Made by a program: the position numbers and the translations under genes. Of a stretch of 64,000 nt of DNA, positions 24,352-43,988 are shown piece after piece (the first letter of the stretch is position 1; each line of letters starts with the position of its first letter). The notes beneath the pieces are model-generated. The model was not told where the DNA came from, made no database searches, and saw nothing but the letters and a program-made list of their open reading frames with translations. Location of the stretch: NCBI GenBank assembly GCA_017416845.1, contig JAFQBA010000112.1, positions 1 through 64,000 on the forward strand, written 5' to 3'. The stretch is from Clostridia bacterium (GTDB lineage Bacteria; Bacillota; Clostridia; UMGS1810).

Positions 24352-24393
24352 GAAAAGTTATAAAAAAACAATAAAATTCGGAGGGCAATGTAT

Positions 24394-26055: not shown

Positions 26056-26078
26056 ATCAATATTATACGGAGTAGATT

Positions 26079-26750
26079 ATGTATAAAACAGAAACTCATC
26101 TTCACACTGCAGAAACCAGTGATTGCGGTCATATAAAAGCAAAGGATATGGTTGAGCTTTATCATGAGGCAGGTTACAAAACGCTATTTATAACAGATCA
26201 CCTTATTTCGTGGTTTTTTGACGGACTAAAAAATATGAGCTGGGAAGAAAAAGTTGAAAGATTTATGTCAGGATACACCGAAGCCAAAAAGGCAGGCGAT
26301 AGCCTTGGGATGAATGTTATTTTGTCGGCGGAATACCGATTTAAAGACTGTCCCAATGACTATCTTGTGTATGGTATCGACAGGGATTTTCTTCTGAAGT
26401 TTCCCGATGTTACAAACATGACCCCGGGGGAGTTTTACAATGCCACTCGGGATGATAATATTTTTATTGTTCAGGCTCATCCATGCAGGGACCATGTTTG
26501 CTATCCGACACCGGAATTTGTTGATGCCATTGAAGCTGTTAACACAAATCCAAGGCATGACAATTTTACGGATGAGAGTTATGAGATTGCACAAAAACAC
26601 AATCTTCCTGTAACCGGAGGCTCCGATTCACATGTTTTCGATGATGTGGCTCTGTGTGCGGTTGTAACCGAACACGAGATTAAAACAGCTTCAGATTATA
26701 TTGAGCTTTTAAAAGAAAATAAGCTCACAATATTTGAAAATAAAAAATAA
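26079..26750 (+). CDS. PHP-domain metal-dependent phosphoesterase-like protein
   Basis: The protein has 223 residues and no signal peptide, so it is cytoplasmic. PHP-family metal ligands are visible: H7 and H9 in THLHT, D40-H41 in ITDHL, E85 in SAEYRF, the His of QAHPCRDH, and D and H in GGSDSH near the end. Members hydrolyse phosphoesters with a trinuclear metal site; the length suits the small stand-alone group rather than DNA polymerase or histidinol phosphatase. It lies 23 bases after the SLH gene and 67 before the next. A sugar-phosphate or nucleotide substrate is possible; none can be named. Confidence 0.85.
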   Translation: MYKTETHLHTAETSDCGHIKAKDMVELYHEAGYKTLFITDHLISWFFDGLKNMSWEEKVERFMSGYTEAKKAGDSLGMNVILSAEYRFKDCPNDYLVYGIDRDFLLKFPDVTNMTPGEFYNATRDDNIFIVQAHPCRDHVCYPTPEFVDAIEAVNTNPRHDNFTDESYEIAQKHNLPVTGGSDSHVFDDVALCAVVTEHEIKTASDYIELLKENKLTIFENKK

Positions 26751-26817
26751 CTCATTTGATTTGCCCTTTGTAAGAAAGCAAAAATCTGGTTTGAAAAAAT
26801 TGTACATGGAGGATAAT

Positions 26818-29481
26818 ATGAAAAAAGCAACTTTAAAAAACTGCTTGTCAGTGTTGATTTCTTTTTTAATCATGAGTTCTTCTTTTGGTGTGCTTGCAAT
26901 GGATAATGCAACCAAGAACCAAAGTGCGGATAGTATTACCGCGGAAACCGAACAGGCAATGGAACTTCTTGATGCTCTTGATTTCAATCTGCCTGAGTTT
27001 GAATCAGCTTCGGAAATTGTCACAAGAGGTGAGTTTGTTTATGTGTTGATGCAGGCTTTGGGCTACAATCCCTCGGAAAGTGCGGCATCAACTTCGTTTT
27101 CCGATGTCAGTCTTGGGGATTATTTTGCAAATGCAATCGAAAGCGCACTTGATATGGGAATTGTTTCCCAAGACGAAATGTTTTATCCTCACAGAAGCAT
27201 AACTGCAAACGAGGCATACAAAATGATGGTTGTTTCACTTGGAATGACCCATAGGGCTAACAGCAGGGGCGGTTATCCGCACGGATTTTTTGCTGTTGCG
27301 AAGGAATGTGACCTTGCTTCGGGAATCGAACTTTACGGCAGTGATTCTGTTTCAAGAAATGAATTCTATGTCCTTATGACAAATCTTCTTAAAACGCCAA
27401 TATTTGAGACAACCGGCATAGTAAACGGCGATGCAAAAATGACCGATGAATACACTGTTATGGAGCGTTATTTTGATGTGTATGAGACAGAAGGTGTAGT
27501 TTTTGCCGATGAATTCACATCTCTTTATGATTGTGATTCCCACGAAGAAAACGGTTTTGTTCAGGTAGGGGATACAACCTACAAATGCAGTTTCCTTCCA
27601 AAGCTTGGCTATAATGCAACCATTTATGTTAAGCGTTCAAGCTCTTCAAAGGATGAAATCATATATGCAACCTACGAAAACAACAAGGTTTTAAAAACAC
27701 AAACTGCTGATTTGACATTTGTGAATTCTTCAAGATTCGAATGCGAAAATGAAGACGGAGATATTAAATCTGTGAGCTTTATCAATTCACCTTCTTACAT
27801 ATACAATGGCAAAGCAGATGTTAAAATTCTTTCGTCCGGGCTAACAAATTTTGATGCAACCGTGGAATTTGTGGATAACGACCTGAACGGAAAATATGAT
27901 GTTGTAAAAATATGGGAGTCAAAAGATTTCTTGGTTGACTATGTAAATGCAGAAGATGAATACATATCGGGTAACAATTCTCCCGGAATTGAGCTTGCTG
28001 ATTCCTCGGACAAAAAATATTTTATCACTATAGACGGAGTGAGAGCTTCGCTTTCCGATGTGAAACCGGGAACAATTGCATCGTGCTTTGTTTCCCGTGA
28101 CGGATTTCTCATAAATATTGATGTCAGCACAAAAAAAGTATCGGGCAAAATTGAGGGCTACGATAACAGTCGGAATTCAGTGATTGTAAACGGAATCCGC
28201 CATAAATACAGCAAAGCTTTTGAAGATAATTTTAAAGCTGTTGCATCAATCGGCACATCGGGTACACTTCTTTTATCCGGCAGAGGAATAGCCGAAGCAT
28301 TCATTTGCGAGTCTGAAAGCAGTATGGACTATGGATATCTTATCGACATAAAAAAGACCACGGGTCTTGATGGTGCGGTAAAAATTAAGCTTTGCACATC
28401 TCAAAGTGACATCACGGTTTTTGATGTATCCGAAAAGGTCATGTTAAACGGAGCAGGAAAGAAAAACTCCGATGATTTGGTTTCGGTTTTTGCTCCTTCA
28501 GGGGTGGCAAATGAACAGCTCATAAGATACGCTGTTGACAAGGACGGGAAAATTTCTAAAATTGATACTCAGGATAAAACAGGATTTCTTAAAGGTGATG
28601 AAAGTGATATTGACAACCTCACACTCTATAAATTCCCATCAAATCTAACTGGTAATGTCTCTTTCCTCAAATCAACCTCAATTGTATTTCCGTTTTTTGA
28701 GGTTTCGGATTCTGCGGTAATGTTTAGAATATGCACAAACAAGGAGCTTTCGGATGAACAGCGTTATCGTGCCTGCAATGCCAAAAACTATTTGTCAAAC
28801 ACAGCCGCCGGAATGAAAGCCCGTCTCACAAAAGTGTATAATGTCACAAGGGATAACGTGGCAGGAGCTTTGGTTGTGACAAGTGATAACGTAGGAAGAC
28901 CAATAGATGAATATTCAACCGGCGGTGTAATTCACAGTGTTACAGATGCACTCACAGATAATGGCACAAGAGGTCTCAAAGTTGTCATTGTAAAAGGGCA
29001 AAACTACGAAACTTACTATATCAATGATGAAGAAGTTCTTCGAGCTGCAGATTCCAATGCAAGCTTTGACAACCCTTGCATTGAACCCGGTGATGCAGTG
29101 AGAATATCTGTTGGCGACAGCGAAACACTGGAGGCAATAACCCTTGATTTTGATTATTCAGCTTCAAAGGTGCTTGAATCATCCACAAGTCACAATGCAA
29201 TTTGCAGATATTATTTTGGTGAAATCTATGACAAATTCGGTGACAAAATAATGGTTGTTCAAAAAGATGTCAACGATAGTTCGCCTGAGATTACAAATGA
29301 TACTATGCGTTATGTGTGGAGAGTATCGGGAATCATTCCCATATTCGATACAGAGAAAAACGAAATCTATCATTCAACGGCAGATGACATAAGAACATAT
29401 CTGTCCTCCGGCGACGGATGCAGTAAGGTTCTTGTGAGAACCTCCAATGGTTCTGTTACGTACATGGTTATATACAGATAG
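26818..29481 (+). CDS. Secreted SLH-domain protein with large unknown region
   Basis: The protein has 887 residues from ATG 26818, 5 bases after GGAGG; the frame is open further upstream inside the PHP gene. Residues 1-27 are a signal peptide. Two or more N-terminal SLH domains lie at about 45-200, with VTRGEF, FSDVSLGDYFANAIESALDM and SRNEF. The remaining 680 residues are beta-rich, with short units such as KVSGKIEGYDNSRNSVIVNG, and match nothing I recognise. It is probably wall-anchored. The gene is 21 bases before the heparinase-type gene, suggesting both products work on the outer surface. Confidence 0.82.
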   Translation: MKKATLKNCLSVLISFLIMSSSFGVLAMDNATKNQSADSITAETEQAMELLDALDFNLPEFESASEIVTRGEFVYVLMQALGYNPSESAASTSFSDVSLGDYFANAIESALDMGIVSQDEMFYPHRSITANEAYKMMVVSLGMTHRANSRGGYPHGFFAVAKECDLASGIELYGSDSVSRNEFYVLMTNLLKTPIFETTGIVNGDAKMTDEYTVMERYFDVYETEGVVFADEFTSLYDCDSHEENGFVQVGDTTYKCSFLPKLGYNATIYVKRSSSSKDEIIYATYENNKVLKTQTADLTFVNSSRFECENEDGDIKSVSFINSPSYIYNGKADVKILSSGLTNFDATVEFVDNDLNGKYDVVKIWESKDFLVDYVNAEDEYISGNNSPGIELADSSDKKYFITIDGVRASLSDVKPGTIASCFVSRDGFLINIDVSTKKVSGKIEGYDNSRNSVIVNGIRHKYSKAFEDNFKAVASIGTSGTLLLSGRGIAEAFICESESSMDYGYLIDIKKTTGLDGAVKIKLCTSQSDITVFDVSEKVMLNGAGKKNSDDLVSVFAPSGVANEQLIRYAVDKDGKISKIDTQDKTGFLKGDESDIDNLTLYKFPSNLTGNVSFLKSTSIVFPFFEVSDSAVMFRICTNKELSDEQRYRACNAKNYLSNTAAGMKARLTKVYNVTRDNVAGALVVTSDNVGRPIDEYSTGGVIHSVTDALTDNGTRGLKVVIVKGQNYETYYINDEEVLRAADSNASFDNPCIEPGDAVRISVGDSETLEAITLDFDYSASKVLESSTSHNAICRYYFGEIYDKFGDKIMVVQKDVNDSSPEITNDTMRYVWRVSGIIPIFDTEKNEIYHSTADDIRTYLSSGDGCSKVLVRTSNGSVTYMVIYR

Positions 29482-29502
29482 TCAGTGAAAGGAGATGTAT
29501 TG

Positions 29503-32500
29503 ATGAAAAACAGAATAATCGCAATACTTGTATGCATTATACTTTTTGTCGGCACAGTGCCGCTTCCTTTCTTGGCTCACGCCAAAGCAAGTGAACTTGT
29601 ACTCAATGAATCCTTCAATCAATATATGACAAACGAAGTACTCTATGAGCTTGATGCCCGTTCAATAGCATATTACATAAGAGAATACCGTGACGGCGAA
29701 AAGGGAATATTTTTGTCAACCCTTAAAAGTGGTGCAGGTCTTAGTTACAAATTTACCCAAACTCAAAATGCCTGTGTGTCTTTTGATGTTTTGTCAACAG
29801 GGGAAACCCTGGTCGGAAGCTTTAATCTCATTGATTCCAAAGGTACTTCACTCACTGCTTTAAGATTTGAAAAGCGTCATCAGATTACCACATCAAACGG
29901 CAAACATATCGGAGGATACGGCAAAAACAATATCACCAATGTGGCAATTGTCGTTGATGAAAAAAATGCGTGCCTCAATATATATATAAACGGAAAACTT
30001 ATGGCGGCAAAAGTAAAAATGCTCACCAAAGCCATAACCGATGTTTCGTCAATCGGATTTTCTTTTGACACTGCCCCGGAAGATGATAACAATGCCGGTG
30101 TAATCATTGACAACATCAATGTTCACGGCGGCGGCAAAATCCTTGACAAATATCCCGTGGCAGACTTTAATCCGGAAACAGCTCCTCCGGTGGACGTAAA
30201 GCTTGAAGGCAATGCCGCAGGGGGAAAGGTGCTTGATGTTAATTTTGACCAGCAGCCTTCTTTCACAATTGCGGCAAAAGAGAACATAATTGAACGAATT
30301 GCCGAAAATGAAACCAACATGGCATCACTTCACGAGCGAACAAACACTTCCGATTTTCACACCGATGTCAAAGGGGTTTCCTCACTGTCGGATTATGTTG
30401 TTTATGAGTATGACATAAAAATTCTTAATATTGCAGAAACTGCAATGCGTGTTTGGCTAAAAGATGTGAATGCCAAATACTCCTCAATGTGTATTTTCCA
30501 AAAGAACGGTAATCTTACTCTCGGAGGATTTTCCACAAAGCTTTCAGGGGACAGATGGTATCGAATTTCAACAGTTTATAACTACTTTGAACGTACAAGA
30601 GATTACTATATCGACGGAAAGCTTGTGTATGAAAACGATCCCATAGAAGCAGACCTCGGAACAGCGGCAGATATAGATGTTTTCAGATTTCACGTGGAAG
30701 CAAAATCTTCCGTAGAGGGAAACCGAGCAAAGTTTTTGCTCGATAACATCAGGGTGTATGAAACCAAAGAGCCTGTGGAAGATTTGAGCACACTTTCGAG
30801 AACCGTCAGCATAGACCGCAACCTTTCGGTGTTTGACAGTGAGAAAAAATTCGAAAATTATCTTAAAGGCTACACAAGTCTTCACACCCGAAGCGGTGTC
30901 GTAATTCATAACGGCAAAAGACACACACTTCCAACGGTTCCCGAGGGCCTTGGCACAGATGCAATGGTTGTTGCCGATGAAATCTGTTCGGTAATCGCAG
31001 TTAAATGTGAAATCTCCGACAATGCACTGACAATAGACGGCAAAGCGGTTGAACCGTCAAAATATAAAGTCAAAGACGGAAAAACATATATTAATGTCAA
31101 CACTCTTTTTGAAGATATCCTTGGCAAAAAGGTATATTCCGACAGCACTACTTTGAGTGACGGTCTTGTTGTTGCAGGTGATGAAACCTTTACACCACCT
31201 TCCGACGAAGCGGAACTTCAGCTTTTCAACAACTACACCTTCTTTGTGCGTCCCGATGAAGAAGCAATAAAAACAGCTTATGAAAACTCACCAAACAAAG
31301 GCGAACATCCCCGTATTCACGCAACTGCTGCAGACTTTGAAAGACTTCGAAGCGAAATTAAGTCGGGCAACAAAAAAGAACTCTTTAATCAGATTATTGA
31401 AAGAGCCGATGAATATGTGGCAAATGATGTTGCAGTGAAATATGAACTTCGTGACGGCACAAGGCTTTTGGATGTTTGCCGTGATGTTCTTCGCAATATG
31501 TATGTGCTTGGTATGGCATATCAGCTCACCGGTGAACAAAAATATGCCCGCAGAGCGTGGACAGATTTAGAAGCTGTTTCAAACTTTCCCGACTGGCATC
31601 CCGGTCATTCTCTTGACCCTGCCGAAATGAGTGCGGCGGTTTCAATTGGCTATGACTGGATGTACGAGGCTTTCACTCCCGAGCAGAGAAGCATTATTGA
31701 AAAAGGTATATATAACAATCTCTTTTATGTGACCTGTAATTCACTGCAGAGCAAAAAAGGACTCCTGTCGGGTGGATTTACCACCAATATGAATCATAAC
31801 CTCATAATAAGCAGTGGTATCTCCATGGGTGCAATGTGCTTTATGGATGTTTATCCCGAAATAAGCTCCTATATTCTTTCAAACACAATAAGAGCTATCG
31901 GCAATGCCATTTATAACTACGGACCTGACGGTGCATGGGTAGAAGGTCCTCACTACTGGGAATATTCAACCCAATATACCACAAAACTGCTGTCTTCTCT
32001 TGACAGTGCAATTGGTAATGATTTCAGACTGAGCCTTGTGGAAGGTCTTTCTACTGCGGCAGACTTTATCATGAATCTTCAGTCTGACATAGGAATTTTC
32101 AACTACGGTGACGGTGCAGTTGCAAGACAATATGTTCCCGAAATTCTCTGGCTTGCCCACAAATATAATCTTGACTATGTAACACCTGCATGGCTCGAGC
32201 TTTCAGGTCTTTCCATGAACGGCTATGAAGACAGAGTTCTTGCACTTCTCTGGCTCGATGCCAATGTGACAAAAGGCGAAATAACAATGCCAACCTCTGC
32301 CTTTTACAAAGGCGAAAACGTTGTCACCTTCAGAGACAAATGGACAAAAGAAAACGGCACATTTGTTGGCATACACGGCGGTCAGACAATAGTAAATCAT
32401 TCACATCTCGACGGTGGTTCATTTGTCTTTGACTCCATGGGAGTGCGATGGGCGCAGGATCCCGGTTCAGGTCCATATGACCTTCCGGACTGCTGGGATA

Positions 32501-33783
32501 CCGTGAACGGAGGCAGATGGAAATATTATATGACCCGTGCCGAAGCTCACAACAGTCTTGTTATAAACCCCGATTCAGAGCCCGACCACAACCCGTTTTC
32601 AAAGGTTACAATAGACCGATTTGAAGAAAAGCCAAAAGGCGGTATAGCGGTTGCAAACACAACAGAACTCTATTTGGATGATGCTCTTTCGGCAAGACGT
32701 GGTTTCTTCTTTACCGATAACCGTCAGAGCCTTGTTATCCGTGATGAAATAACTCTCAAAAAGAAGAGCGATGTATATTGGTTTATGCAAACCAAAGCAG
32801 ATGTAACCGTGACCGAAGATGGGGCAATGCTCTCTTATGACGGTAAGCGACTAAAACTTGAAGCAGTGAGTGATGCAAAGCTTGAAATTACATCAGGCGA
32901 AAGTGTTCCGCTTCCCACTTCTCCGGTCATGAAAAAAGACCTTATGCCCGGTATGAACAGAATTGTAATAAAATTTACTGCATCCGGCGACACGGCAATA
33001 ACGGTAAAACTCACGCCCTACGGTATCGGTTCAAGCGACGTAGCGGAATATCACAAAAGCATAGATTCCTGGTCTGTAGCTGACGGATCGATTGAAAGCT
33101 TTACTCCTCCCGAACTCAAGGGTGCTTATGCAGATTCAAAGCCTCTTAACTTCAATTCGGGAAAAACCGCAACAATTGGCATAGCCGGCGGGAAAAATGC
33201 AAAATATCCCCTTATTACAGCCGATGTTGACCAATCAAAATATAATATTGAAATCATTGATGAAAGAGAACTTGACTTCACTGCAATAAAAGTGACCGAT
33301 AAAACAAATTCTCTCAACACATCCACCTGGATTGTGAGCTATAAAATAGTTCCCGAACCAATGGAATTTGACGGTATGGTATCGCTTCCGGTTTCGTCGG
33401 TAACCGTAAGCTCCGAGCCTCAACCCGAAAACCATGTGTACAACATTTTCGACTCCGACCTTTCCACCAAGTGGGCAACAAAGGGCGAAAATCAGTGGAT
33501 TATCCTTGAACTTGCCGAAGAATCGGTTGCAGACAATCTCATGATTGCTTTCGGCTCGGGTGATGTTCGTCAGACCTTCTTTGATATCAGCGTGTCAACC
33601 GACGGAGTAAACTATGAAAAGCTCTATGACGGTCTCTCTTTGGGCGGCACATTAAATCACGAAAAACATAGCCTTGGCGGCAAAAAAGTAAAGTACATTA
33701 AACTTGGTTTCCACGGTAACACCCAAGCAGGACGTGGCGGATGGACATCAGTTCAGGAAGTGGTAGTTACACGAAACAAGTAA
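29503..33783 (+). CDS. Secreted heparinase II/III-type polysaccharide lyase with LamG and discoidin domains
   Basis: The protein has 1426 residues. ATG 29503 lies 8 bases after AAAGGAG; a GTG at 29485 sits before that site and is rejected. A signal peptide (1-28) is followed by two LamG-like domains (about 30-215 and 240-430) and a short stalk-like domain. The alpha/alpha toroid of a heparinase II/III-like lyase starts at HPRIHATAADFERL (about 605), with EGPHYWEYS near 813. The beta-sandwich half contains HSHLDGGSF near 965 and AEAHNSLVINPD. The last 135 residues are an F5/8 type C (discoidin) domain. The family cleaves uronic-acid polysaccharides such as heparin-type glycans or alginate. The substrate here is not known. 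It is the last gene of the probable operon. Confidence 0.85.
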   Translation: MKNRIIAILVCIILFVGTVPLPFLAHAKASELVLNESFNQYMTNEVLYELDARSIAYYIREYRDGEKGIFLSTLKSGAGLSYKFTQTQNACVSFDVLSTGETLVGSFNLIDSKGTSLTALRFEKRHQITTSNGKHIGGYGKNNITNVAIVVDEKNACLNIYINGKLMAAKVKMLTKAITDVSSIGFSFDTAPEDDNNAGVIIDNINVHGGGKILDKYPVADFNPETAPPVDVKLEGNAAGGKVLDVNFDQQPSFTIAAKENIIERIAENETNMASLHERTNTSDFHTDVKGVSSLSDYVVYEYDIKILNIAETAMRVWLKDVNAKYSSMCIFQKNGNLTLGGFSTKLSGDRWYRISTVYNYFERTRDYYIDGKLVYENDPIEADLGTAADIDVFRFHVEAKSSVEGNRAKFLLDNIRVYETKEPVEDLSTLSRTVSIDRNLSVFDSEKKFENYLKGYTSLHTRSGVVIHNGKRHTLPTVPEGLGTDAMVVADEICSVIAVKCEISDNALTIDGKAVEPSKYKVKDGKTYINVNTLFEDILGKKVYSDSTTLSDGLVVAGDETFTPPSDEAELQLFNNYTFFVRPDEEAIKTAYENSPNKGEHPRIHATAADFERLRSEIKSGNKKELFNQIIERADEYVANDVAVKYELRDGTRLLDVCRDVLRNMYVLGMAYQLTGEQKYARRAWTDLEAVSNFPDWHPGHSLDPAEMSAAVSIGYDWMYEAFTPEQRSIIEKGIYNNLFYVTCNSLQSKKGLLSGGFTTNMNHNLIISSGISMGAMCFMDVYPEISSYILSNTIRAIGNAIYNYGPDGAWVEGPHYWEYSTQYTTKLLSSLDSAIGNDFRLSLVEGLSTAADFIMNLQSDIGIFNYGDGAVARQYVPEILWLAHKYNLDYVTPAWLELSGLSMNGYEDRVLALLWLDANVTKGEITMPTSAFYKGENVVTFRDKWTKENGTFVGIHGGQTIVNHSHLDGGSFVFDSMGVRWAQDPGSGPYDLPDCWDTVNGGRWKYYMTRAEAHNSLVINPDSEPDHNPFSKVTIDRFEEKPKGGIAVANTTELYLDDALSARRGFFFTDNRQSLVIRDEITLKKKSDVYWFMQTKADVTVTEDGAMLSYDGKRLKLEAVSDAKLEITSGESVPLPTSPVMKKDLMPGMNRIVIKFTASGDTAITVKLTPYGIGSSDVAEYHKSIDSWSVADGSIESFTPPELKGAYADSKPLNFNSGKTATIGIAGGKNAKYPLITADVDQSKYNIEIIDERELDFTAIKVTDKTNSLNTSTWIVSYKIVPEPMEFDGMVSLPVSSVTVSSEPQPENHVYNIFDSDLSTKWATKGENQWIILELAEESVADNLMIAFGSGDVRQTFFDISVSTDGVNYEKLYDGLSLGGTLNHEKHSLGGKKVKYIKLGFHGNTQAGRGGWTSVQEVVVTRNK

Positions 33784-33800
33784 ACCTGAACTTTATGTTA

Positions 33801-33842
33801 TATCCTTCACAACCAACGCTGTAGTGTCGGTTGTGAAGGATA
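33801..33842 (+). terminator. Perfect 14-bp hairpin after the heparinase-type gene
   Basis: TATCCTTCACAACC (33801-33814) pairs perfectly with GGTTGTGAAGGATA (33829-33842). No T-run follows, so termination is not assured. It abuts the inverted-repeat element at 33841 and its loop (ACCAACGCT) resembles that element's ends. Confidence 0.45.
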
Positions 33843-34115
33843 GCCTTAACCACCAACACTAAAGGCGGTTATAAAATATAAATTTCGCCTCACTCATCGT
33901 TAAAATCCTCGGAAATATTAACATATTCCCTGCGTTTTTGCCTTGACTGAGACAAAATTTATTATTTTAAAACTCCGAAGGACCTCAAATGGATGAATTT
34001 TTGAGGATATTTTGGTGCGGAGGACGCAGGAAGGCTTCCGCCTTTCAAGGACGACAAATCAAAAGATACCGAAAATTCGCCATTTGTGGCATCTTCAGTG
34101 TTGGTTGTTAAGGCT
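33841..34115. mobile_element. Second MITE-like inverted-repeat element, 275 bp
   Basis: TAGCCTTAACCACCAACACT (33841-33860) is inverted at 34096-34115 with one mismatch. The interior is non-coding and itself structured: CCTGCGT and ACGCAGG face each other, and CCTCAAA with TTTTGAGG form a hairpin. No transposase is present. It occupies most of the 412-base gap between two operons. It is unrelated in sequence to the element at 7837-8236. Confidence 0.6.
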
Positions 34116-34195
34116 AGACTCAATACATATCGGAGACTATCACAAAATTTAGCATTTATTCACTGTTTCTGATAATGAAAATGAGGAGGAATACA

Positions 34196-35446
34196 ATGTA
34201 TAAAAAAATTACAAATGTTTTCATTACGGCATTAATGCTTATTACAATGAGTATTTCGTCTCCTGTCTTTGCAGGCGGTGCATCAGACAGAGGAAGCGAA
34301 TTAAATCCATATGAAAGCAGTTTAGGTACAACGGGAGTAACAATAACTTCGTCAAGCTTTAACGGGAAAGCGGAGGGGTTTGCGGGCAAATCACCTCAAG
34401 ATACGGTTAAGAAAATAACACTCACCCAAGACAGTGGTACTCTTCCTATAGGAAGTGCAGGAATAAATGGCGGATATCCGCGTTATGCATATCGCTCCGG
34501 CTTTGATTTCACTTCCAATCCCGAAGCAACTTTTCAGTTTAACGTATACGCAGACGGAGATACCATCGCAGGCTTTACATTCCATTATTATGATTTGATC
34601 AGATGGACACCCGACGGTAAATTATACGGCATTACCACTGCCGCTTCGTGGGCGACAACTGAAGCAGAAATCGGGAAACTGGAGAGAGGACGCTGGCACA
34701 CAATTGCCATGACATTCAACAGCGAAACTTTGGAGCAGAAAATTTATGCTGACGGAGAGTTTCTTGCCACAATCACAAGATGTAACTTCTCTGCTTCGAA
34801 TAATTCCATGCGTATCGGAACATATGCAGGCAGCAGCACCGGTGTTGTTGCAATAGACGATGTATATTCATATCCGGGAGCATATGACCCGACCATCGAC
34901 TCGGTTACAGTAATGGATGATGAAAATGTAAAGTTTGAAGATGGCACAATTACATATGATGAAGAAATGTTTGTTGACGTTGAATCTTTTAAAGAATATT
35001 TGACAACTATTTGCTCTTGTGACGAAATCATAATCTGCGACAAAAACTATATGCCGGCAGATTGCATTTTGCCGTCGGAAGGATATTGTCTTATAGTTCC
35101 CGAATCGGGAGTTGGTTTTGTAACATACGACTTTCAGGCATTGTTTTTTTTATCGGATGTTACGGCGGTTTGGGATGGTGAACAGATAAAAGTATCTGCT
35201 TTAGCGACTAATAATCATATAGATGGTAAGAATGTTACCATGATTGTTTCTTTGAGAGATTCTGACGGCTATCTTTCAAAGGTGTATTCATCACCAACAA
35301 AAAATGTAACTTCCAAAGAGGAGTTTGTCATAGAAAACATTGAAGCAAACGGCGGTTCGGCATATGTCTTTTTCACAGAAGACTGGAATTCTATAAGAGC
35401 AGTATCGCCCGTGATTATCAATGTGACAGAAAATTTGAACCCATAA
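34196..35446 (+). CDS. Secreted LamG-domain protein (duplicated N-terminal domain)
   Basis: The protein has 416 residues from ATG 34196, 5 bases after AGGAGGA. Residues 1-27 are a signal peptide. Residues about 30-230 form a LamG-like beta-sandwich that is close to 90 percent identical to the same domain in the next gene, for example YPRYAYRSGFDFTSNPEATF in both. The remaining 185 residues are unrelated to the neighbour except for a final module resembling those of other secreted proteins here. No anchor is seen. It starts a probable seven-gene operon; a glycan-binding role is inferred from the fold. Confidence 0.8.
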   Translation: MYKKITNVFITALMLITMSISSPVFAGGASDRGSELNPYESSLGTTGVTITSSSFNGKAEGFAGKSPQDTVKKITLTQDSGTLPIGSAGINGGYPRYAYRSGFDFTSNPEATFQFNVYADGDTIAGFTFHYYDLIRWTPDGKLYGITTAASWATTEAEIGKLERGRWHTIAMTFNSETLEQKIYADGEFLATITRCNFSASNNSMRIGTYAGSSTGVVAIDDVYSYPGAYDPTIDSVTVMDDENVKFEDGTITYDEEMFVDVESFKEYLTTICSCDEIIICDKNYMPADCILPSEGYCLIVPESGVGFVTYDFQALFFLSDVTAVWDGEQIKVSALATNNHIDGKNVTMIVSLRDSDGYLSKVYSSPTKNVTSKEEFVIENIEANGGSAYVFFTEDWNSIRAVSPVIINVTENLNP

Positions 35447-35484
35447 AAATTATACATATAAATTAAATTTTAGGAGGAAAAAAC

Positions 35485-37581
35485 ATGTTGAAAAAATCAC
35501 TAAGTATTTTTATGGTTGTTATAATGCTTTTAACAATGAGCATTACATCACAAGTCTTTGCATCCTCAAACAAAGGAAATGCATTGAATCCCTATGAGAG
35601 CAGTTTGGGTACAACCGGAGCAACAATAACTTCTTCAAGCTTTAACGGAAATGCCGAGGGTTTTGCCGGCAAATTGGCTCAGGACACAGTTAAGAAAATC
35701 ACCCTTACCGAAGAAAGCGGTACTCTTCCGATTGGAAGTGCAGGTGTAAATGGCGGATATCCACGTTATGCATATCGTTCCGGCTTTGATTTCACATCAA
35801 ATCCCGAAGCAACTTTCCAGTTTAACATATACGCAGACGGAGATACCATTGCAGGTTTTACGTTCCACTATTATGATTTAATAAGATGGACACCCGACGG
35901 TAAATTATACGGCATTACCACTGCCGCTTCGTGGGCAACAACAGAAGCTGTAATTGGTAAACTTGAACGAGGACGTTGGCATACAATTGCTGTAACCTTC
36001 GATAGCGAAACTTTAGAACAGGATATTTATGCAGATGGTGAGTTCCTTGCCACAATCACAAGATGCAGCTTTGCTGCTTCGAATAATACCATGCGTATCG
36101 GAACCTATGCAGGCAGCAATAAGGGTGTTGTTGCAATTGATGATGTGTATACATATCCGGGAGCATATGACCCGACAAATGAAATTGTGACACTTGCCGG
36201 CGGTGACGAAAGAATGACAATTAATTCAGACTCAAAAACCATCATATGCCAAGAAGATGCATTTGCAGATGCCGCAAGCTTTAACAAAGCAGTTGAAATC
36301 GCTTTTGATGCAAATTATGCAGTTCTCTATGATTTCGATTTGACAGTTCCTGCCACAGACTTTGCGTATGGTGTTGTAGCAATTAACTCCAAAAACGGTA
36401 TTGGCTATGACTATTACAAAGTTTATGACGGAACAGTTATTGAAGAAAACTTTGATGATGGTGCCATTGACACTTCAAAACTCGTAATTCAAAATTGCGA
36501 AGGCGATTACACTGCAGAATACATCGGCGGTTTGGGTACAAAATCGGCAGATGACAAGGCACTTGTTCTCTATCCTGCAGACAAAGATGTGAAAGCTGAT
36601 AACTATAACGAACCATCACTTAATCTTAAAGACCAGAACGGTTTTAACGATGAAATCATAACTATTGAGGCTGATGTATATAAAAATGACCTTGCAACAA
36701 CCTCTTATATATACACAAAATACTGGAATCTTGACAAAGCCACACCCGGTCAAAGCTGGCTCAATCTTGTTACATTCTCAAACTATGGTCAGATACACAT
36801 CGCAGGCAAAGATAAAATGCCATACAAGGCAAACCGCTGGTACAAAATAGCAGCAACATATACAAGGGAAAAATCCGGATTTGACATATATGTTAACGGA
36901 CAGTTCGTTGATTTTGTGGCTATCACCAATAATCACACAGCTGTTGCAAATTATTTTCAGGTTGTATCACGCTATGACCTTTCAGAAAAACAAATTCCCG
37001 ACCGTCAGCTTAACTCAAAAATAGCAATAGATAACTACAGAGTATATCTTGCACCCTACATTGCAGACGGTGACAATGCAACAATAACTGTAAGCGGTGA
37101 TCTTAAGCTCAGCAAAAACAATATCATTGCAAAAGACTATACAAATTATACCAAAGCACAGATTATGAATATGGTAACTGCTCCTGTTTCATATGAAATC
37201 TACACTGACAACACATACACAACTGCCCTTGCAGACGATGACAAAATTACCGCAGACAGTGTACTCGTTTCAAAATCGTCAGACGGCGAGGCTGTTGAAT
37301 ACTATATCTTCAGTGAAGGTTCGATAGGCTATCTTAACTTTGAGCAGGCTGACGGAAAAATCACCGTATCGGTTAGTTCAACAGTGGCAGACAGCACAGG
37401 TTACATATTTGCTCTTGCCGAATATGACGGAAACGAGCTTTTAAATGTATCACTTTCAAAAGAACTTAAGTTTATGCAAAATAATGAACACACATTAAAT
37501 TATTCACAAGACAAAACCTACAAGGCGTTTGTGTGGGCAAAAAATCAGGCTCCTGTGAGATTTGCCACGTTTTCAGAATAA
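35485..37581 (+). CDS. Secreted protein with two LamG domains
   Basis: The protein has 698 residues, with TAGGAGG before ATG 35485. A signal peptide (1-27) is followed by the LamG-like domain shared with the 34196 gene (about 30-230), a linker, and a second, different LamG-like domain (about 310-525). A C-terminal beta module ends in YKAFVWAKNQAPVRF, matching the module in the 1107, 4355 and 8357 products. It lies 38 bases after its paralogue and 35 before the GH20 gene. The partial duplication followed by new C-termini points to domain shuffling. Confidence 0.8.
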   Translation: MLKKSLSIFMVVIMLLTMSITSQVFASSNKGNALNPYESSLGTTGATITSSSFNGNAEGFAGKLAQDTVKKITLTEESGTLPIGSAGVNGGYPRYAYRSGFDFTSNPEATFQFNIYADGDTIAGFTFHYYDLIRWTPDGKLYGITTAASWATTEAVIGKLERGRWHTIAVTFDSETLEQDIYADGEFLATITRCSFAASNNTMRIGTYAGSNKGVVAIDDVYTYPGAYDPTNEIVTLAGGDERMTINSDSKTIICQEDAFADAASFNKAVEIAFDANYAVLYDFDLTVPATDFAYGVVAINSKNGIGYDYYKVYDGTVIEENFDDGAIDTSKLVIQNCEGDYTAEYIGGLGTKSADDKALVLYPADKDVKADNYNEPSLNLKDQNGFNDEIITIEADVYKNDLATTSYIYTKYWNLDKATPGQSWLNLVTFSNYGQIHIAGKDKMPYKANRWYKIAATYTREKSGFDIYVNGQFVDFVAITNNHTAVANYFQVVSRYDLSEKQIPDRQLNSKIAIDNYRVYLAPYIADGDNATITVSGDLKLSKNNIIAKDYTNYTKAQIMNMVTAPVSYEIYTDNTYTTALADDDKITADSVLVSKSSDGEAVEYYIFSEGSIGYLNFEQADGKITVSVSSTVADSTGYIFALAEYDGNELLNVSLSKELKFMQNNEHTLNYSQDKTYKAFVWAKNQAPVRFATFSE

Positions 37582-37616
37582 AAGACAACATCTGCTATTG
37601 CTAAAGGAGAATAAAT

Positions 37617-39539
37617 ATGACTCAGCCGCTTATTAAGATTAACATTGTTTCAGATATCAACAGTTTTTCCGAGGGTTTGGCAAAGCTTTGCAATGACTAC
37701 GGATTTGAAATTTGTGCAGAAGGCATTGAGCTGAGTGTTTTTGAAGGAGACGCACTTCGCGTCTCCTTTTTAAAAGGCACAGCAAAAATTGAATATAGCA
37801 GGAAATGTGAATTTTTCAGGGCGTTTGGCTTGCTTCTTGAAGCCATAAGAGATGGTTTGACCGAATTTGAAAGATGTGAAAAAGCAAATTTTGACACCTG
37901 CGGAGGAATGATTGACCTTTCACACGGTGCACTTATGAATGTGAAATCCATAAAAAGTATGATAAAAAAGTTTGCAATGATGGGGCTTAATATGTTCATG
38001 CTCTACCGTGAAGAAAGCTACTGCGTTCCTGAATATGAATATTTTGGCTACATGAGAGGCAGACACACCGATGAAGATATAAAAGAGATTGATGACTATG
38101 CCGCAATGTTTGGAATAGAAATCATTCCGGCAATTCAGACTCTCGGTCATCTTCAAAACACTCTTCGTTGGCACGAGTTTAATTCCATAAGAGATACGGG
38201 CGACTGCCTTCTTGCCGATGAAGAAAAGACATACGAATTTATCGAAGCTATGATTCGTTCGGCGATCAGACCTCTAAGGTCCAAAAGGGTTCACATAGGA
38301 CTTGATGAAACAATGAGCCTCGGAACAGGAGCCTATATGAGCAAACACGGATATGTCCCAAGAGAAGAAATTTTTTGCAGACATTTAAACAGGGTTTGTG
38401 ATATATGCAAAAAATATGATTTAAAACCTATCATCTGGGGAGATATGTTTTTCCGCATAGGAGGAGGAACCGATGGTTATGCACTGACAAACAAAACCAT
38501 CCCCAAGAAAATAGCAGACCTGATTCCCGAAAACACAGAGCTTACATCGTGGGATTACAGCAGTGTGAACGAATCTGACATACAAGAAAATTTATCTGCA
38601 TTGAAACATACCGGACGGAATGTATGGTTTGCCGGGGCGGTTCACGACTGGCACGGTTTTTGTGTAAACTATTATCACACTGTTAAAGCATCTCAAACAG
38701 CTCTTTCTGCGTGCAAAAAAGAGGGTATAAAGGATGTGTTTATAACCACTTGGGGTGATGATAGTCCAGAAAGAGACTATTTTTGTAATTTGCTTGGTTA
38801 TCAGCTATATGCAGAGCATATGTACGGTGATTCGCCCGATTTTTCAGCTGTGAAAAAAAGACACGATTTTTGTGTGGGGAGCAGTAGTGACATGATTCTT
38901 GCAATTTCGGACATTGACAACCCCGAAAAACAAAATACCGAAGCTCACAAAACAAATTCTAAAAGAGTTCTCGACGGAGTAGGGGACATAATAAATCCCT
39001 CAAAATATCTAATGTGGCAAGACCCAATAGCCGGGCTTTTTGATTATGAAGCGGCAAAATTTAATTTTAAAGAGCATTTTAAAACTCAAAAGGGTATTCT
39101 TCAAGCCTTCAAAGGGAAATATCCCGAATTTGAAAAATGTCTTGATTTTTATATTGAGCTTTGCGAGGTTCTTGAACATAAGTGCAACATAGGACTTGAA
39201 ATGAAAGATGCCTATGATAAAGGTGACAAGAAACAGCTTTCCCTTTATGCATCGGAAAAACTTCCCGAGCTTGCCGAAATGGTTGAAAAACTGTGGGTTT
39301 TAAACCGTGAGCTGTGGTTTGAACGCCATGATGCTTTTGGCTTTGAGGTTTTAGACAGAAGATACGGAAATCTTTCTTTCAGAATTAAAACAAGCATCTA
39401 CCGCCTCAATAAATTTATTAACGGAGATGTAGAAAAGATAGAAGAGCTTGAAGAAAAAAGACTTCCTCCCACAAAAATAAAAGATCGCATTGCCTACCAG
39501 AACGGCTGGCTTGAAATATCCACTGCATGGGGCAGATAA
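37617..39539 (+). CDS. Glycoside hydrolase family 20-type beta-N-acetylhexosaminidase, cytoplasmic
   Basis: The protein has 640 residues without a signal peptide. The TIM-barrel begins near residue 90 (GGMIDLSHGALMNVKSIKSM), and the catalytic Asp-Glu pair of GH20 is seen as D230-E231 in HIGLDETM. IIWGDMFFR and WGDDSPERDYF are further barrel-strand motifs. GH20 enzymes remove terminal GlcNAc or GalNAc by substrate-assisted catalysis. The missing signal peptide means the substrate must be an imported oligosaccharide. A helical C-terminal region of about 180 residues follows the barrel. It is the third gene of the probable operon. Confidence 0.85.
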   Translation: MTQPLIKINIVSDINSFSEGLAKLCNDYGFEICAEGIELSVFEGDALRVSFLKGTAKIEYSRKCEFFRAFGLLLEAIRDGLTEFERCEKANFDTCGGMIDLSHGALMNVKSIKSMIKKFAMMGLNMFMLYREESYCVPEYEYFGYMRGRHTDEDIKEIDDYAAMFGIEIIPAIQTLGHLQNTLRWHEFNSIRDTGDCLLADEEKTYEFIEAMIRSAIRPLRSKRVHIGLDETMSLGTGAYMSKHGYVPREEIFCRHLNRVCDICKKYDLKPIIWGDMFFRIGGGTDGYALTNKTIPKKIADLIPENTELTSWDYSSVNESDIQENLSALKHTGRNVWFAGAVHDWHGFCVNYYHTVKASQTALSACKKEGIKDVFITTWGDDSPERDYFCNLLGYQLYAEHMYGDSPDFSAVKKRHDFCVGSSSDMILAISDIDNPEKQNTEAHKTNSKRVLDGVGDIINPSKYLMWQDPIAGLFDYEAAKFNFKEHFKTQKGILQAFKGKYPEFEKCLDFYIELCEVLEHKCNIGLEMKDAYDKGDKKQLSLYASEKLPELAEMVEKLWVLNRELWFERHDAFGFEVLDRRYGNLSFRIKTSIYRLNKFINGDVEKIEELEEKRLPPTKIKDRIAYQNGWLEISTAWGR

Positions 39540-39555
39540 AATATGAGGTGAGACT

Positions 39556-40374
39556 GTGTTTAAAATAGGACTTTCAACCTGTTCAAAAGAAATTAACGAA
39601 AAACTTTTTTGTGATTACAGCAAAAGTGGCATTGAATATATGGAAATAAGTCTTTCTGGTGCTCAAAATATTGACTTTGACTACAAAATGGTTTATAATT
39701 TATCTCAAAAATATAACATAAAACTGTGGTCATATCATCTTCCTATAATTCCTTTTTATGAGCTTGACCTCTCAAATCCGCATATGTGCAACGGTGCAAT
39801 AAAACACTTTTGCACTCTAATGGAAAAAGTGGCAGATATCGGTGTTAAAACCTTTGTTGTTCATCCAAGTGTCGAACCTATAAACGACAGTGATCGCCCC
39901 GACAGGATTGAATGCTCAAAGCATTCAATTGCCCGACTTTCGCAGTTTGCAAAAAAGCTCGGAGCAGTTGTTGCAGTTGAAGATCTTCCAAGGAGCTGTC
40001 TCGGTAATTGCTCGGGAGAAATAAAAGAACTCATAAGCCTTGATGATTCTCTCGGAGTATGCTTCGACACCAATCATTTGCCTAAGGAAGACCCCGTTGA
40101 CTTTATGCACGCTATTGGTGACAAAATCATCACAACTCACATTTCGGATTATGATTTTGCAGACGAAAAACACTGGATGCCGGGCGAGGGCAAAAACAAC
40201 TGGTATGAAATTTACAAAGCATTAAATGAAGTCGGATACAAAGGGCCGTGGCTTTATGAAGTTGGATTTTCTTGCCCGGACACAATCACACGAAGCCGTG
40301 ATCTTGGTTGTGCCGATTTTGCAAAAAATGCCAACGAAATATTTGAAAACAAAAAAATTAATGTTTCATATTAA
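39556..40374 (+). CDS. Sugar phosphate isomerase/epimerase-type TIM-barrel protein
   Basis: The protein has 272 residues. The start is GTG 39556, with GAGGTGA 4 bases upstream. It belongs to the xylose-isomerase-like / AP-endonuclease-2 superfamily. Metal-binding residues of that fold are seen in VEDLPRSCLGN (Glu), VCFDTNHLPKED (Asp and His), TTHISDYD (His), and the final Glu in LYEVGF. Members isomerise or epimerise free or phosphorylated sugars. The gene is 16 bases after the GH20 gene and 24 before the DUF4434 gene, so it probably handles a sugar from the same glycan. Confidence 0.85.
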   Translation: MFKIGLSTCSKEINEKLFCDYSKSGIEYMEISLSGAQNIDFDYKMVYNLSQKYNIKLWSYHLPIIPFYELDLSNPHMCNGAIKHFCTLMEKVADIGVKTFVVHPSVEPINDSDRPDRIECSKHSIARLSQFAKKLGAVVAVEDLPRSCLGNCSGEIKELISLDDSLGVCFDTNHLPKEDPVDFMHAIGDKIITTHISDYDFADEKHWMPGEGKNNWYEIYKALNEVGYKGPWLYEVGFSCPDTITRSRDLGCADFAKNANEIFENKKINVSY

Positions 40375-40398
40375 CATCAGAACGGAGAGAATGAAAAA

Positions 40399-41295
40399 AT
40401 GAAAAAAGGGCCAATCACAGGTACATTTATCGATGAAATTACATATGACATCCCGTCTTCAAACTGGTCATTGGATCAGTGGAAAGCTGATTTTGACAAT
40501 ATGCAGGAGATAGGCATAGACACGGTGATTTTTATCCGCGGAGGACTTGAGGATAAATCCGTATTTCCGTCAAAAGTGCTCGGCACTCCCTATGCAGATG
40601 ATTTTGCAAGCTTTGTTTTTGAAGAAACTTCAAAACGCAACATGGATGTTTTCTTTGGAATGTACATTTCAAATCTTGACTGGAATGGCGGAGATGCTAA
40701 AGGCGAAATCCGAAAAAACATTCTTTTTACCGATGAAGTCTACAAAAGATACGGCGATTATCCTTCGTTTAAAGGCTGGTACATTCCCCAGGAACAAAGT
40801 CACAATTGTCTTAATTTCGGAGAAATCATGAGAGGTATGTCTGCTATTTGCAAAGACAAAACTCCCGATAAGAACGTTTTTATCAGTCCGTTTTTCCACA
40901 CTCACATCACGGCAGACAAAGACTGGTTCACTCCCCAACAGCACAAGGAAGAATGGGAAAAACTTTTTTCCTATGGCGGGGGCGACATTGACATATGTGC
41001 ATTTCAGGACGGTACCGCACCTATGGATAAAATTGACGAGTTCTACACCATTACCCGTGACCTTTGCGAAAAATATAACATTCGTCACTGGGTTAATGCC
41101 GAAACCTTTGAACGTGATGTAAGGTGTATGTATTATCCCATAACCTTTCAGCTTTTGAGACGCCGACTTGAGCATCACAAAAATTATGCCGAAAAAATCA
41201 TTACCTTTGAATTTTCGCATTTTCTCAGTCCTCAGTCTATCTACCCTTCGGCACAAAACCTTAATAGACTGTATAAGGATTATTATTTAAAATAG
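40399..41295 (+). CDS. DUF4434-type glycosidase-like protein
   Basis: The protein has 298 residues and lacks a signal peptide. The opening ITGTFIDEITYDIPSSNW and the FIRGG motif are typical of DUF4434, a TIM-barrel family related to glycoside hydrolases. E132 in YIPQE and E235 in NAETFE are placed like the acid/base and nucleophile of retaining glycosidases. No activity can be named. It is embedded in the probable operon between the isomerase and the metallo-beta-lactamase-fold gene. Confidence 0.75.
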   Translation: MKKGPITGTFIDEITYDIPSSNWSLDQWKADFDNMQEIGIDTVIFIRGGLEDKSVFPSKVLGTPYADDFASFVFEETSKRNMDVFFGMYISNLDWNGGDAKGEIRKNILFTDEVYKRYGDYPSFKGWYIPQEQSHNCLNFGEIMRGMSAICKDKTPDKNVFISPFFHTHITADKDWFTPQQHKEEWEKLFSYGGGDIDICAFQDGTAPMDKIDEFYTITRDLCEKYNIRHWVNAETFERDVRCMYYPITFQLLRRRLEHHKNYAEKIITFEFSHFLSPQSIYPSAQNLNRLYKDYYLK

Positions 41296-41337
41296 AATTC
41301 TCGTTTAAACATTTTATGAACGAAAGGAGCAATCCTT

Positions 41338-42183
41338 GTGAAAAACGGATATTTAGAATCTGTTATTTACGATTATGACAAAAATTTTGTTTCCTACTGG
41401 GAAGGTATTTTTTCTTCGTTTTCATCCCATAATTCGGGTGACAGAGTGTGGTTTGCAGGACCAAGCGCATATGTTTTTGCCTTCGGTGGTGAAAAATTTG
41501 CCATGGATCTGCAAATCAGACGGCAGAGTGATTTTGAAAAAATAAAACCGAGATTGCACGATTTTGTAAAAGATGTATCATTTGTGCTCATCACACACCA
41601 GCATGACGACCATATGTGTATTCCGCTGATGCGTGAACTAAAGGATACAAACATCCGTTGGTACATACCCCATGACTGCAGTCGGCACCTAATAGAAAGC
41701 TCGGGACTAAAAGATAAAAACATCATAAAGGTGAAACCCGGTGATGTGTTTGAAATCGGAAACCTTACCGTTAAAGCTTTTCACTCTCCCCATGTGAGAG
41801 CAGATGAAAATGAATTATTTGCACAGAGAGGATATGAAATAAGCTCTCATGGGAAAAAATTGTTATTTCCGGGAGATGTGAGAGATTACGATTTTAGTGA
41901 TTATCCTGACTTTGGAAACGTGGACATATGTTTTTCACATCTTTGGGCAGGAAATGATTCGATTAATGAATCACTTTATATGCCAATGCTTAAAAAATTT
42001 GCGGATTTCAATTCGGCGTTTCACGCAAAAAAATATTTTCTGTGTCATCTCTATGAACTTGGCAGAGAAGAAAAATATTTGTGGAGCTACAAGCATGCCG
42101 GAATTGCTAAAGACATGTTTTATGGCAATATTCCCGAAAGTACGATTGAAATACCAAAACTCGGAAACTCTTATGAATTGTAA
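41338..42183 (+). CDS. Metallo-beta-lactamase-fold hydrolase, UlaG-like
   Basis: The protein has 281 residues and starts at GTG 41338, 8 bases after AAAGGAG. The metal-binding signature is H87-Q-H89-D-D91-H92, followed by a downstream His in FHSPHVRAD and an Asp in FPGDVRDYD. The family includes L-ascorbate-6-phosphate lactonase UlaG and related phosphodiesterases. With the neighbouring sugar enzymes, a sugar-lactone or sugar-phosphate substrate is likely but not proven. It is cytoplasmic. Confidence 0.8.
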   Translation: MKNGYLESVIYDYDKNFVSYWEGIFSSFSSHNSGDRVWFAGPSAYVFAFGGEKFAMDLQIRRQSDFEKIKPRLHDFVKDVSFVLITHQHDDHMCIPLMRELKDTNIRWYIPHDCSRHLIESSGLKDKNIIKVKPGDVFEIGNLTVKAFHSPHVRADENELFAQRGYEISSHGKKLLFPGDVRDYDFSDYPDFGNVDICFSHLWAGNDSINESLYMPMLKKFADFNSAFHAKKYFLCHLYELGREEKYLWSYKHAGIAKDMFYGNIPESTIEIPKLGNSYEL

Positions 42184-42200
42184 GAAAGGCAAGAGTGCAA

Positions 42201-43112
42201 ATGAACGTTACATTTGGAGTGTGTGCAGACCTGCATACGGAATTTATTCATGATGCACCAAAACGCATGGAAGAATTTTTGAATTATTGCAAAAGAGAAA
42301 ATGTCGATTTTTGCGTAAACCTTGGTGATTTTTGTCCTCCGGGTGAACTTAATGCAGAACATAAAAAAGAAATTTTCTCCAAGATAAAAAGTTTTAATAT
42401 TCCTTTTTATCATGTTTTGGGTAATCATGACATGGATGAGAATTCAAAGGATAATGTGTTGAGTTTTTTGGAAGTGAACGACGCTCATACTTCATTCGAT
42501 TTTGGCGGTGTTCATTTTGTTATTCTCGATGCCTGCCACTTCAGAACCGGCAATGGCTATGAATCCTATGACAACGGTAACTACAAATATGCTCATGGTG
42601 ATGATGTTCCGTTTTTGCCACCGTCGGAGCTTGAATGGCTTGAAAAAGATCTTTCCGCAGCCCGATATCCTGCTGTCGTATTTTCCCATCAGAGCCTCAT
42701 CGAAAGCCGAAGCGGAATCAGAAACCCCGAGGATTTTAGAAATATAATAAAGAAGTCTCCCAATGGGATTATAATGGCAATGTGCGGCCATGAACATGTT
42801 GACAGAGCCGAATTTTCCGATGGCGTGTGGTATGTTTGCATAAACAGCATGAGCTACTATTGGGCAGGCGAGAACTATCAACACGAAACCTATGGAGAGA
42901 AAATCGAAAAATTATATCCGCTGCTTAAAATGGTGTTTCCCTATAAAGACTCTGTTTTTGCAATAGTCGAGGTTTCGGATGAATCGGTTTCAATAAAGGG
43001 AAAACAGTCCGAAATTGTGGGAGCATTACCCGAAGACATGAACTTTAAAAAAAGAGGATTTAGCGAAAGAATCAGTGCATCGATTGAAGATAAGATTTTG
43101 AATTTGAAATAA
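42201..43112 (+). CDS. Calcineurin-like metallophosphoesterase
   Basis: The protein has 303 residues from ATG 42201. A GTG at 42195 lies nearer the AAAGG site, so the start could be two codons earlier. The family metal motifs are all present: CADLH near the start, NLGDF, LGNHDMD, FSHQSLI and CGHEHVD. There is no signal peptide, so it is cytoplasmic, unlike many secreted relatives. It is the last gene of the probable operon, 17 bases after the previous stop. It may hydrolyse a phosphodiester or phosphomonoester derived from the glycan. Confidence 0.85.
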   Translation: MNVTFGVCADLHTEFIHDAPKRMEEFLNYCKRENVDFCVNLGDFCPPGELNAEHKKEIFSKIKSFNIPFYHVLGNHDMDENSKDNVLSFLEVNDAHTSFDFGGVHFVILDACHFRTGNGYESYDNGNYKYAHGDDVPFLPPSELEWLEKDLSAARYPAVVFSHQSLIESRSGIRNPEDFRNIIKKSPNGIIMAMCGHEHVDRAEFSDGVWYVCINSMSYYWAGENYQHETYGEKIEKLYPLLKMVFPYKDSVFAIVEVSDESVSIKGKQSEIVGALPEDMNFKKRGFSERISASIEDKILNLK

Positions 43113-43133: not shown

Positions 43134-43988
43134 TTATTTTTTGCTGCGACTACGATATTCACCGGGTGTCATTTTGGTTGTTTTTGAAAAAGCTGAAAGA
43201 AATCCCCTTGCAGAATTATAGCCTATACGCGATGCCACTTGTGAAAGTGTCAGGTTAGTTTCTCTCAGCAGTTGTTTGGCAAGTTGAATTCTCATTTCGG
43301 TTTTTACTGTTCGGAAACTTTTACCATATAGTGATTTAATAATTACAGCTACGCGTTTTGGTGAAAGGCATAGCCTGTTTGCAATAAAGTCAAGATCAAT
43401 ATCATCTGTGAGATTTTGTGCTATGAGACTGTCTATTTCATAACTGTAATTTCTTCCGGATTTTGATATAATAGCAGTATGTTCTTTATCAGGAAGCTGT
43501 CGGTTCAACGAATCATAGAGAGAAAATGTCAGTGCGCTTAAAATATAACAAATTCTGTCTTTTTTTCCAAAGCATTCCGAGTCGGAAATTTCAGAAAATT
43601 GATTCAGATAATACCCGACTGCGGAGGCATCATGCAGAATGTTTGCGGATATTCTTGAAAAAACGCGCTCGAATTCGCTGTATGTGTCTTCGCATCCACG
43701 CTGCTTCCCTGTTCTTGAAAATGCAAAGTACATATTGATCTTTTTGGTGTTATTCTCGGTAAATGATTGATGATACTGCGTGGGAGCAATAATCATTGCC
43801 TGGTTTTTATCTATGATAAATGTTTCACTTTCGGTACGTATTGTTACCTTACCGTTCCACACAAAAAAAAGCTCATAATTTGTATGGGCATGTACTTTTG
43901 AACGGGATGGTCTTCCTGAGAATGCATCGGTTGTAAATCTGAATTTTGCATTGCCGAGTATGAGTTCGGTTTCCTGAAATTCTGACAT
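43134..43988 (-). CDS. AraC-family transcriptional regulator
   Basis: The protein has 284 residues with GAGGTG before ATG 43988. The N-terminal cupin-like domain (about 15-110) contains HAHTNYELFFVWNGKVTI. The helix-turn-helix pair lies at about 185-280, with LDFIANRLCLSPKRVAVI and IGYNSARGFLSAFSKT, then PGEYRSR. It is convergent with the preceding operon and divergent from the gene at 44140. It may control both. Confidence 0.9.
   Translation of the reverse strand: MSEFQETELILGNAKFRFTTDAFSGRPSRSKVHAHTNYELFFVWNGKVTIRTESETFIIDKNQAMIIAPTQYHQSFTENNTKKINMYFAFSRTGKQRGCEDTYSEFERVFSRISANILHDASAVGYYLNQFSEISDSECFGKKDRICYILSALTFSLYDSLNRQLPDKEHTAIISKSGRNYSYEIDSLIAQNLTDDIDLDFIANRLCLSPKRVAVIIKSLYGKSFRTVKTEMRIQLAKQLLRETNLTLSQVASRIGYNSARGFLSAFSKTTKMTPGEYRSRSKK

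Follow-up and report, generated by a model that had tools for sequence, protein, structure and literature searches.

A seven-gene glycan cluster without a linked transporter in a ruminant-gut Clostridia genome, and its candidate unlinked importer

The stretch analysed here (the window; 64,000 nucleotides) is contig C101 of genome G000, a 3.3-Mb metagenome-assembled genome (MAG) in 142 contigs with a completeness of 79.5%. Its closest public relatives are gut Clostridia MAGs, including some from goat and sheep; the host is an uncultured ruminant-gut Clostridia genome. Positions 34196-43112 carry a cluster of seven genes encoding exported LamG proteins and cytosolic sugar enzymes. The cluster is real and for the most part peculiar to its lineage; in a sister genome it is decaying. 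Its enzymes are individually ordinary. There is roughly an even chance that it is a cytosolic finishing cluster for an oligosaccharide, fed by a shared, unlinked importer.

According to this reading, LamG and S-layer homology (SLH) proteins located outside, perhaps with a heparinase-like protein, would bind or cut a polysaccharide or a glycoprotein glycan. The fragments would enter by an unlinked importer serving many loci, most likely the single Lpl-type ATP-binding cassette (ABC) permease pair of the genome, together with the large lipoprotein that serves as binding protein (contig C55). The imported oligosaccharide would contain a beta-linked N-acetylhexosamine (HexNAc), alongside what is probably a beta-mannoside or a comparable beta-glycoside. 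In the cytoplasm, the GH20C enzyme would take off the terminal HexNAc; DUF4434, a predicted retaining GH-A-like enzyme, would cleave the second beta-linkage; the isomerase, the metallo-beta-lactamase-fold (MBL) hydrolase and the metallophosphoesterase (MPP) would process the freed sugars. The substrate, all catalytic activities and the connection of the C55 importer to the cluster are inferred.

The seven genes and their products

The run of seven closely spaced genes claimed in the preliminary description is present; all open reading frames (ORFs) are intact and on the + strand (domains according to Pfam).

34196..35446, +: Lam1, exported surface protein with a LamG domain (Laminin_G_3) and a signal peptide (Pfam, hydrophobicity rule)
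35485..37581, +: Lam2, exported, two LamG domains, N-terminal ~240 residues duplicating Lam1 (Pfam, alignment)
37617..39539, +: predicted GH20C-type beta-N-acetylhexosaminidase (GH20 + GH20C_C), no signal peptide, GLDE at residues 228-231 (Pfam, PDB matches)
39556..40374, +: ISO, xylose-isomerase-like TIM-barrel sugar isomerase/epimerase (AP_endonuc_2; Pfam, metal-site motifs)
40399..41295, +: DUF4434 (PF14488), putative glycosidase resembling clan GH-A, catalytic candidates E132/E235 (Pfam, structure model)
41338..42183, +: MBL-fold metallohydrolase (Lactamase_B_2), HQHDDH motif (Pfam, motif)
42195..43112, +: MPP, calcineurin-like metallophosphoesterase (Metallophos; Pfam, motifs)

The spacings are 38, 35, 16, 24, 42 and 11 bases; the last one, before MPP, is 17 instead of 11 if MPP starts at ATG 42201. 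Good ribosome-binding sites precede nearly all seven genes. The proposed Lam1 start, 34196, is backed by an AGGAGG directly upstream, whereas the start of the longer ORF (34175) has no such site. The bounds of a single operon are plausible, since a gap of 391 bases precedes Lam1 and a convergent AraC-family gene follows MPP.

Lam1 and Lam2 share 221 of 347 aligned residues (64% identity), mostly within the first ~240, and are by this alignment duplicates sharing their N-terminal half. Laminin_G_3 scores above the curated cut-off in Lam2; in Lam1 it reaches 25.4 bits (cut-off 27.6) or, in the frame-level search, 28.2 (above). No cell-wall anchor domain was detected in Lam1 by Pfam, and no solved structural relative of this protein was found by sequence. 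Signal peptides were judged by a crude hydrophobicity rule, not by SignalP: N-terminal signal sequences were found in Lam1 and Lam2, and none in GH20, ISO, DUF4434, MBL or MPP. Both the duplicated exported LamG proteins and the GH20 and DUF4434 proteins without signal peptides, as initially described, were thus recovered.

The two domains of GH20 exceed their cut-offs (PF00728, 41.4 bits; GH20C C-terminal domain PF18088, 171.6 bits, 2e-50). The closest solved relatives are streptococcal GcnA (2epk, 8e-92) and pneumococcal GH20C (5a69, 3e-85), and the catalytic Asp-Glu pair is retained, GLDE aligning with GMDE of GcnA. From the domain pair and the Asp-Glu pair, the protein is assigned to the GH20C branch, in agreement with the proposed glycan cluster with a cytosolic GH20 whose substrate must be imported. 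Twelve GH20-type genes were found in the DNA read from G000: none encodes a signal peptide and none has an ABC or phosphotransferase system (PTS) gene beside it. LamG, SLH or other exported proteins adjoin cytosolic GH20 genes at six of these 12 loci, and likewise in genomes G001 and G011.

DUF4434 matches PF14488 over its full length (190.3 bits, cut-off 30, 7e-56). An AlphaFold2 (AF2) model built from 12 relatives has a pLDDT of 92. BT_0435 of Bacteroides thetaiotaomicron (PDB 4h41), of the same DUF4434 family and fold, matches by sequence (E 7e-64) and is the top structural match (VIA Z 38.8 at 42% identity). Behind it come Cwp19 (20.9), a beta-mannosidase of family GH164 (19.7) and members of GH42 and GH5. 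The fold is a (beta/alpha)8 barrel like that of GH-A members (Z 18-20 to GH164, GH42 and GH5). Only three glutamates (E113, E132 and E235) are invariant among the 12 sequences. E132 follows strand 124-129 (strand 4) and E235 follows strand 229-234 (strand 7); in clan GH-A, these two strand ends carry the acid/base and the nucleophile, respectively. The prediction for DUF4434 is a glycosidase resembling clan GH-A, with E132 as candidate acid/base and E235 as candidate nucleophile; from the position of these two invariant residues, it would be a retaining beta-glycosidase. It thereby has a concrete catalytic prediction that could be checked by one assay.

The 'putative alpha-L-fucosidase' of the 4h41 PDB title is an untested label; the nearest other folds to DUF4434 are GH-A enzymes (GH164, GH42, GH5). 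No GH29 Pfam match was found in DUF4434, and GH29 entries are absent among the structural matches listed, though some may lie outside that list. No literature was found on DUF4434 by that name, and none about this protein among the matches listed for PF14488/BT_0435/4H41.

In other gut Clostridia, relatives of DUF4434 lie beside GH130 (L019), beside N-acylglucosamine 2-epimerase (L020 by Pfam; L021 and L022 by resemblance) and beside GH78 rhamnosidase (L020 and L021 by Pfam; L022 and L024 by resemblance). Mannoside-like substrates are hinted at by these neighbours. In L019 (9099-10900), an AraC regulator gene and the DUF4434 gene overlap by 4 bases, which suggests coupled translation. Four DUF4434-matching genes (663, 393, 924 and 328 aa) are found in L025 (2-9793), from a Candidatus Sumerlaeota MAG: a local expansion of a family without described function.

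ISO matches AP_endonuc_2 and keeps its metal-site motifs; the HQHDDH motif of the MBL protein and the DxH, GD, GNHD and GHxH motifs of MPP are intact. No solved structural relatives of the MBL protein or of MPP were found by sequence. Relatives of ISO and of MPP also occur in other sugar clusters; MPP is met again elsewhere in the Clostridia, next to different sugar enzymes. The hydrolase had been called UlaG-like, a name that does not hold: its match to UlaG (L-ascorbate-6-phosphate lactonase) is 28.7 bits over residues 77-150 only, against an NCBIfam equivalog cut-off of 306. The suggestion of a possibly phosphorylated glycan, drawn from names alone, finds no specific support, given this score and the recurrence of MPP beside other sugar enzymes.

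Transporters of the genome and genus

No ABC, PTS or major facilitator superfamily (MFS) gene was found by Pfam in the cluster or among the window proteins scanned, as first noted. In the whole MAG, profile searches returned no PTS_EIIC, no MFS_2 (glycoside-pentoside-hexuronide, GPH, porter), no SBP_bac_1 and four BPD_transp_1 matches. BPD_transp_1 matches number 3-6 in each of the six genus genomes (completeness 74-91%), whereas the count rises to 46 elsewhere in the family; G006, from one other genus, is equally low (5). By these counts, the missing transporter is a trait of the genome and genus and is not special to the cluster.

Two of the four BPD_transp_1 proteins of G000 are the LplB/LplC-like permease pair of C55; the other two look like amino-acid-type and phosphate-type systems. 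In the C55 locus (L085, 5770-9372), the Lpl-type pair is accompanied by a 574-aa lipoprotein binding protein, which is invisible to the PF01547 search because it has no Pfam match. After reading of the pair and of this protein, the idea that G000 lacks any sugar ABC importer was rejected. No homologue of the binding protein was found in the other 34 stretches of G000 searched, window included. LplB/LplC-like permeases are present in 6/6 genomes of the genus (61-86% identity; L085, L117-L121). The binding protein diverges faster than its permeases: the counterparts in G004, the nearest sister genome, are 65% and 85-86% identical, respectively, and G001 has two tandem copies of the binding protein (40-41% identity). 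Its structure matches are Smon0123 (2e-14) and AlgQ (3e-9); AlgQ proteins are alginate-binding. Smon0123 binds glycosaminoglycan (GAG) disaccharides (PMC5430744).

An apparent PstA-type permease ORF (L084, 6347-7180) has a terminal stretch matching HATPase_c, a possible frameshift or misassembly.

The Streptococcus pneumoniae GH20C locus (SP_2141-2146) is served by an unlinked importer, NgtS-P1-P2, a binding protein and two permeases without their own ATPase (PMC5215778). The present cluster may be analogous: a GH20C lies in an enzyme cluster and the candidate importer is unlinked. GH20C is however the sole common component; no ROK, GH38, GH125, GH92 or GH29 gene is found here and, unlike in S. 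pneumoniae, the operon includes DUF4434, isomerase, MBL, MPP and LamG genes. Smon0121-0123 of Streptobacillus moniliformis also combines a large binding protein with two permeases; it lies inside a GAG cluster (PMC5430744), whereas the C55 importer is unlinked.

Gut Firmicutes are usually described with a dedicated importer beside each glycan-enzyme set; in Roseburia intestinalis, the 33 Gram-positive polysaccharide utilization loci (gpPULs) include 35 transporters (PMC5320581). Like these, the cluster has predicted glycan-degrading enzymes (GH20, DUF4434), an adjacent AraC regulator (43134-43988) and exported proteins; unlike them, it has no linked carbohydrate transport system, and by this absence it falls outside the gpPUL definition of PMC5320581 despite its enzymes and regulator. 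A genus rich in carbohydrate-active enzymes (CAZymes), with 3-6 ABC-permease matches and one conserved oligosaccharide-type pair, would break the importer-per-locus rule; its substrate range could then not be read from linked transporters. An extension to the whole genus, in which dispersed transporter-less CAZyme loci would all be fed by one conserved Lpl-type pair whose binding proteins diverge or duplicate, is tentative and somewhat doubtful; if true, such a hub importer replaces the usual one-importer-per-locus plan. No paper was found that describes, for Clostridia, a single permease pair working with many binding proteins.

Related genomes and rival explanations

Relatives were searched in 98 genomes for each of five genes, and the neighbourhoods of the closest ones were compared. 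None of the other genomes examined carried all seven genes intact. Because neighbourhoods differ among the closest relatives of DUF4434, ISO, MPP and the UlaG-like gene, a conserved seven-gene pathway was rejected; the distinct pathway previously claimed is not supported.

G004 is very close to G000 (rpoC, 98.9% identical; 98.3% nucleotide identity across the rpoB-rpoC stretch). It carries a remnant of the cluster directly after rpoC (L028, 11436-13437; G004:C198): 16.3 kb ahead of the isomerase are missing, and the ISO, MBL and MPP genes have internal deletions whose ends share short direct repeats of ~9, 8 and 5 bases. DUF4434 is the sole intact gene. Synonymous:non-synonymous changes between G004 and G000 are 12:1 in DUF4434 and 41:2 in rpoC, against 16:23 and 7:10 in the decayed ISO and MPP fragments (Fisher p 0.001). 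By these counts, DUF4434 is under purifying selection while its operon partners decay, and in G004 is retained for its own sake, since 12:1 resembles rpoC and not ISO or MPP. MAG misassembly cannot be wholly excluded as the cause of the remnant.

The order in G001 (L019), a second related genome of the genus, is LamG, LamG, GH20, GH130, AraC, DUF4434. Identities to the window genes are 25-30% for LamG, 24% for GH20 (non-orthologous) and 84% for DUF4434; the layout is therefore an interchangeable theme and not a fixed seven-gene pathway. Conservation of gene order, proposed as a check, is thus partial: ISO-DUF4434-UlaG-MPP persists as fragments in G004, and LamG-LamG-GH20-...-DUF4434 recurs in G001 with LamG and GH20 genes that are not orthologous.

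Several points weigh against feeding of the cluster by the Lpl-type importer. The Lpl genes adjoin housekeeping genes, not CAZymes. In G004 the importer is retained but the cluster is lost, which shows that no strict link exists between them. The importer counts cover PTS_EIIC, MFS_1, MFS_2, SBP_bac_1 and BPD_transp_1, not CUT2 (carbohydrate uptake transporter 2; PF02653), sodium:solute symporter (SSS) porters or the MsmX-type ATPase; the identity of the substrate is only deduced; and the MAG is incomplete (79.5%). Seven MFS_1 genes were moreover found in G000, several of them near sugar genes: a GH20-type gene (C78, C15) or an isomerase-like gene and a regulator (C69). Import therefore need not use the Lpl system, and small sugars could enter the same cytosolic cluster by MFS porters encoded elsewhere. 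This is rather unlikely: with 3-9 per genome, MFS_1 genes are not numerous in the genus, none lies in the cluster, and the substrates of GH20C are oligosaccharides, which in known systems are handled by large binding proteins of the Lpl type (PMC5215778, PMC5430744).

A cluster-specific importer hidden in the ~20% of the genome not recovered would fit an assembly in 142 contigs, but independent gaps would be needed to hide importers in each of the six genus genomes, all low in BPD_transp_1; this explanation is very improbable. Scarcely less so is action of the cytosolic enzymes on a substrate from inside, in the turnover of cell wall, teichoic acid or glycoprotein, with the LamG proteins as unrelated neighbours. 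None of the 12 GH20-type enzymes has a signal peptide, half of them are not beside exported proteins, and DUF4434 is intact in G004 without LamG and GH20 genes, all of which would suit such a role; the exported proteins at the other six loci and in G001 and G011, and the rhamnosidases, GH130 and epimerases near DUF4434 relatives, typical of glycan use, argue against it. The cytosolic finishing cluster with a shared importer stays the preferred reading.

Flanking genes and minor observations

24388-26055, +: secreted SLH protein (part of the upstream set 24388..29481)
26079-26750, +: PHP-domain protein (same set)
26734-29481, +: exported 915-aa protein, no Pfam match (same set)
29485..33783, +: secreted heparinase II/III-like protein with an F5/8 type C domain, may act outside as a partner (Pfam)
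33784..34174, no strand: intergenic gap of 391 bases between the operon and the upstream secreted-protein genes (sequence)
43134..43988, -: candidate regulator of the AraC family, cupin-like sensor, transcribed towards the operon (Pfam)

The upstream set (SLH, PHP, 915-aa and heparinase-like genes) comes after rpoB-rpoC. The 391-base gap holds merely weak promoter-like matches. The promoter/terminator scan gave 46 promoter-like sites (30 expected) and a terminator count below expectation, and is therefore uninformative.

A set made up of a secreted SLH protein and a 915-aa-like protein recurs ahead of cytosolic GH20 genes, both in G000 and in a different genus of the same family (window 24388-33783, L087, L033). 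A 496-aa protein without Pfam match (window 47474-48964) has a 71% identical counterpart in G004 (L028, 1116-2591); its gene, upstream of rpoB in G004 and far downstream of rpoC in the window, is a rearranged rpoBC neighbour.

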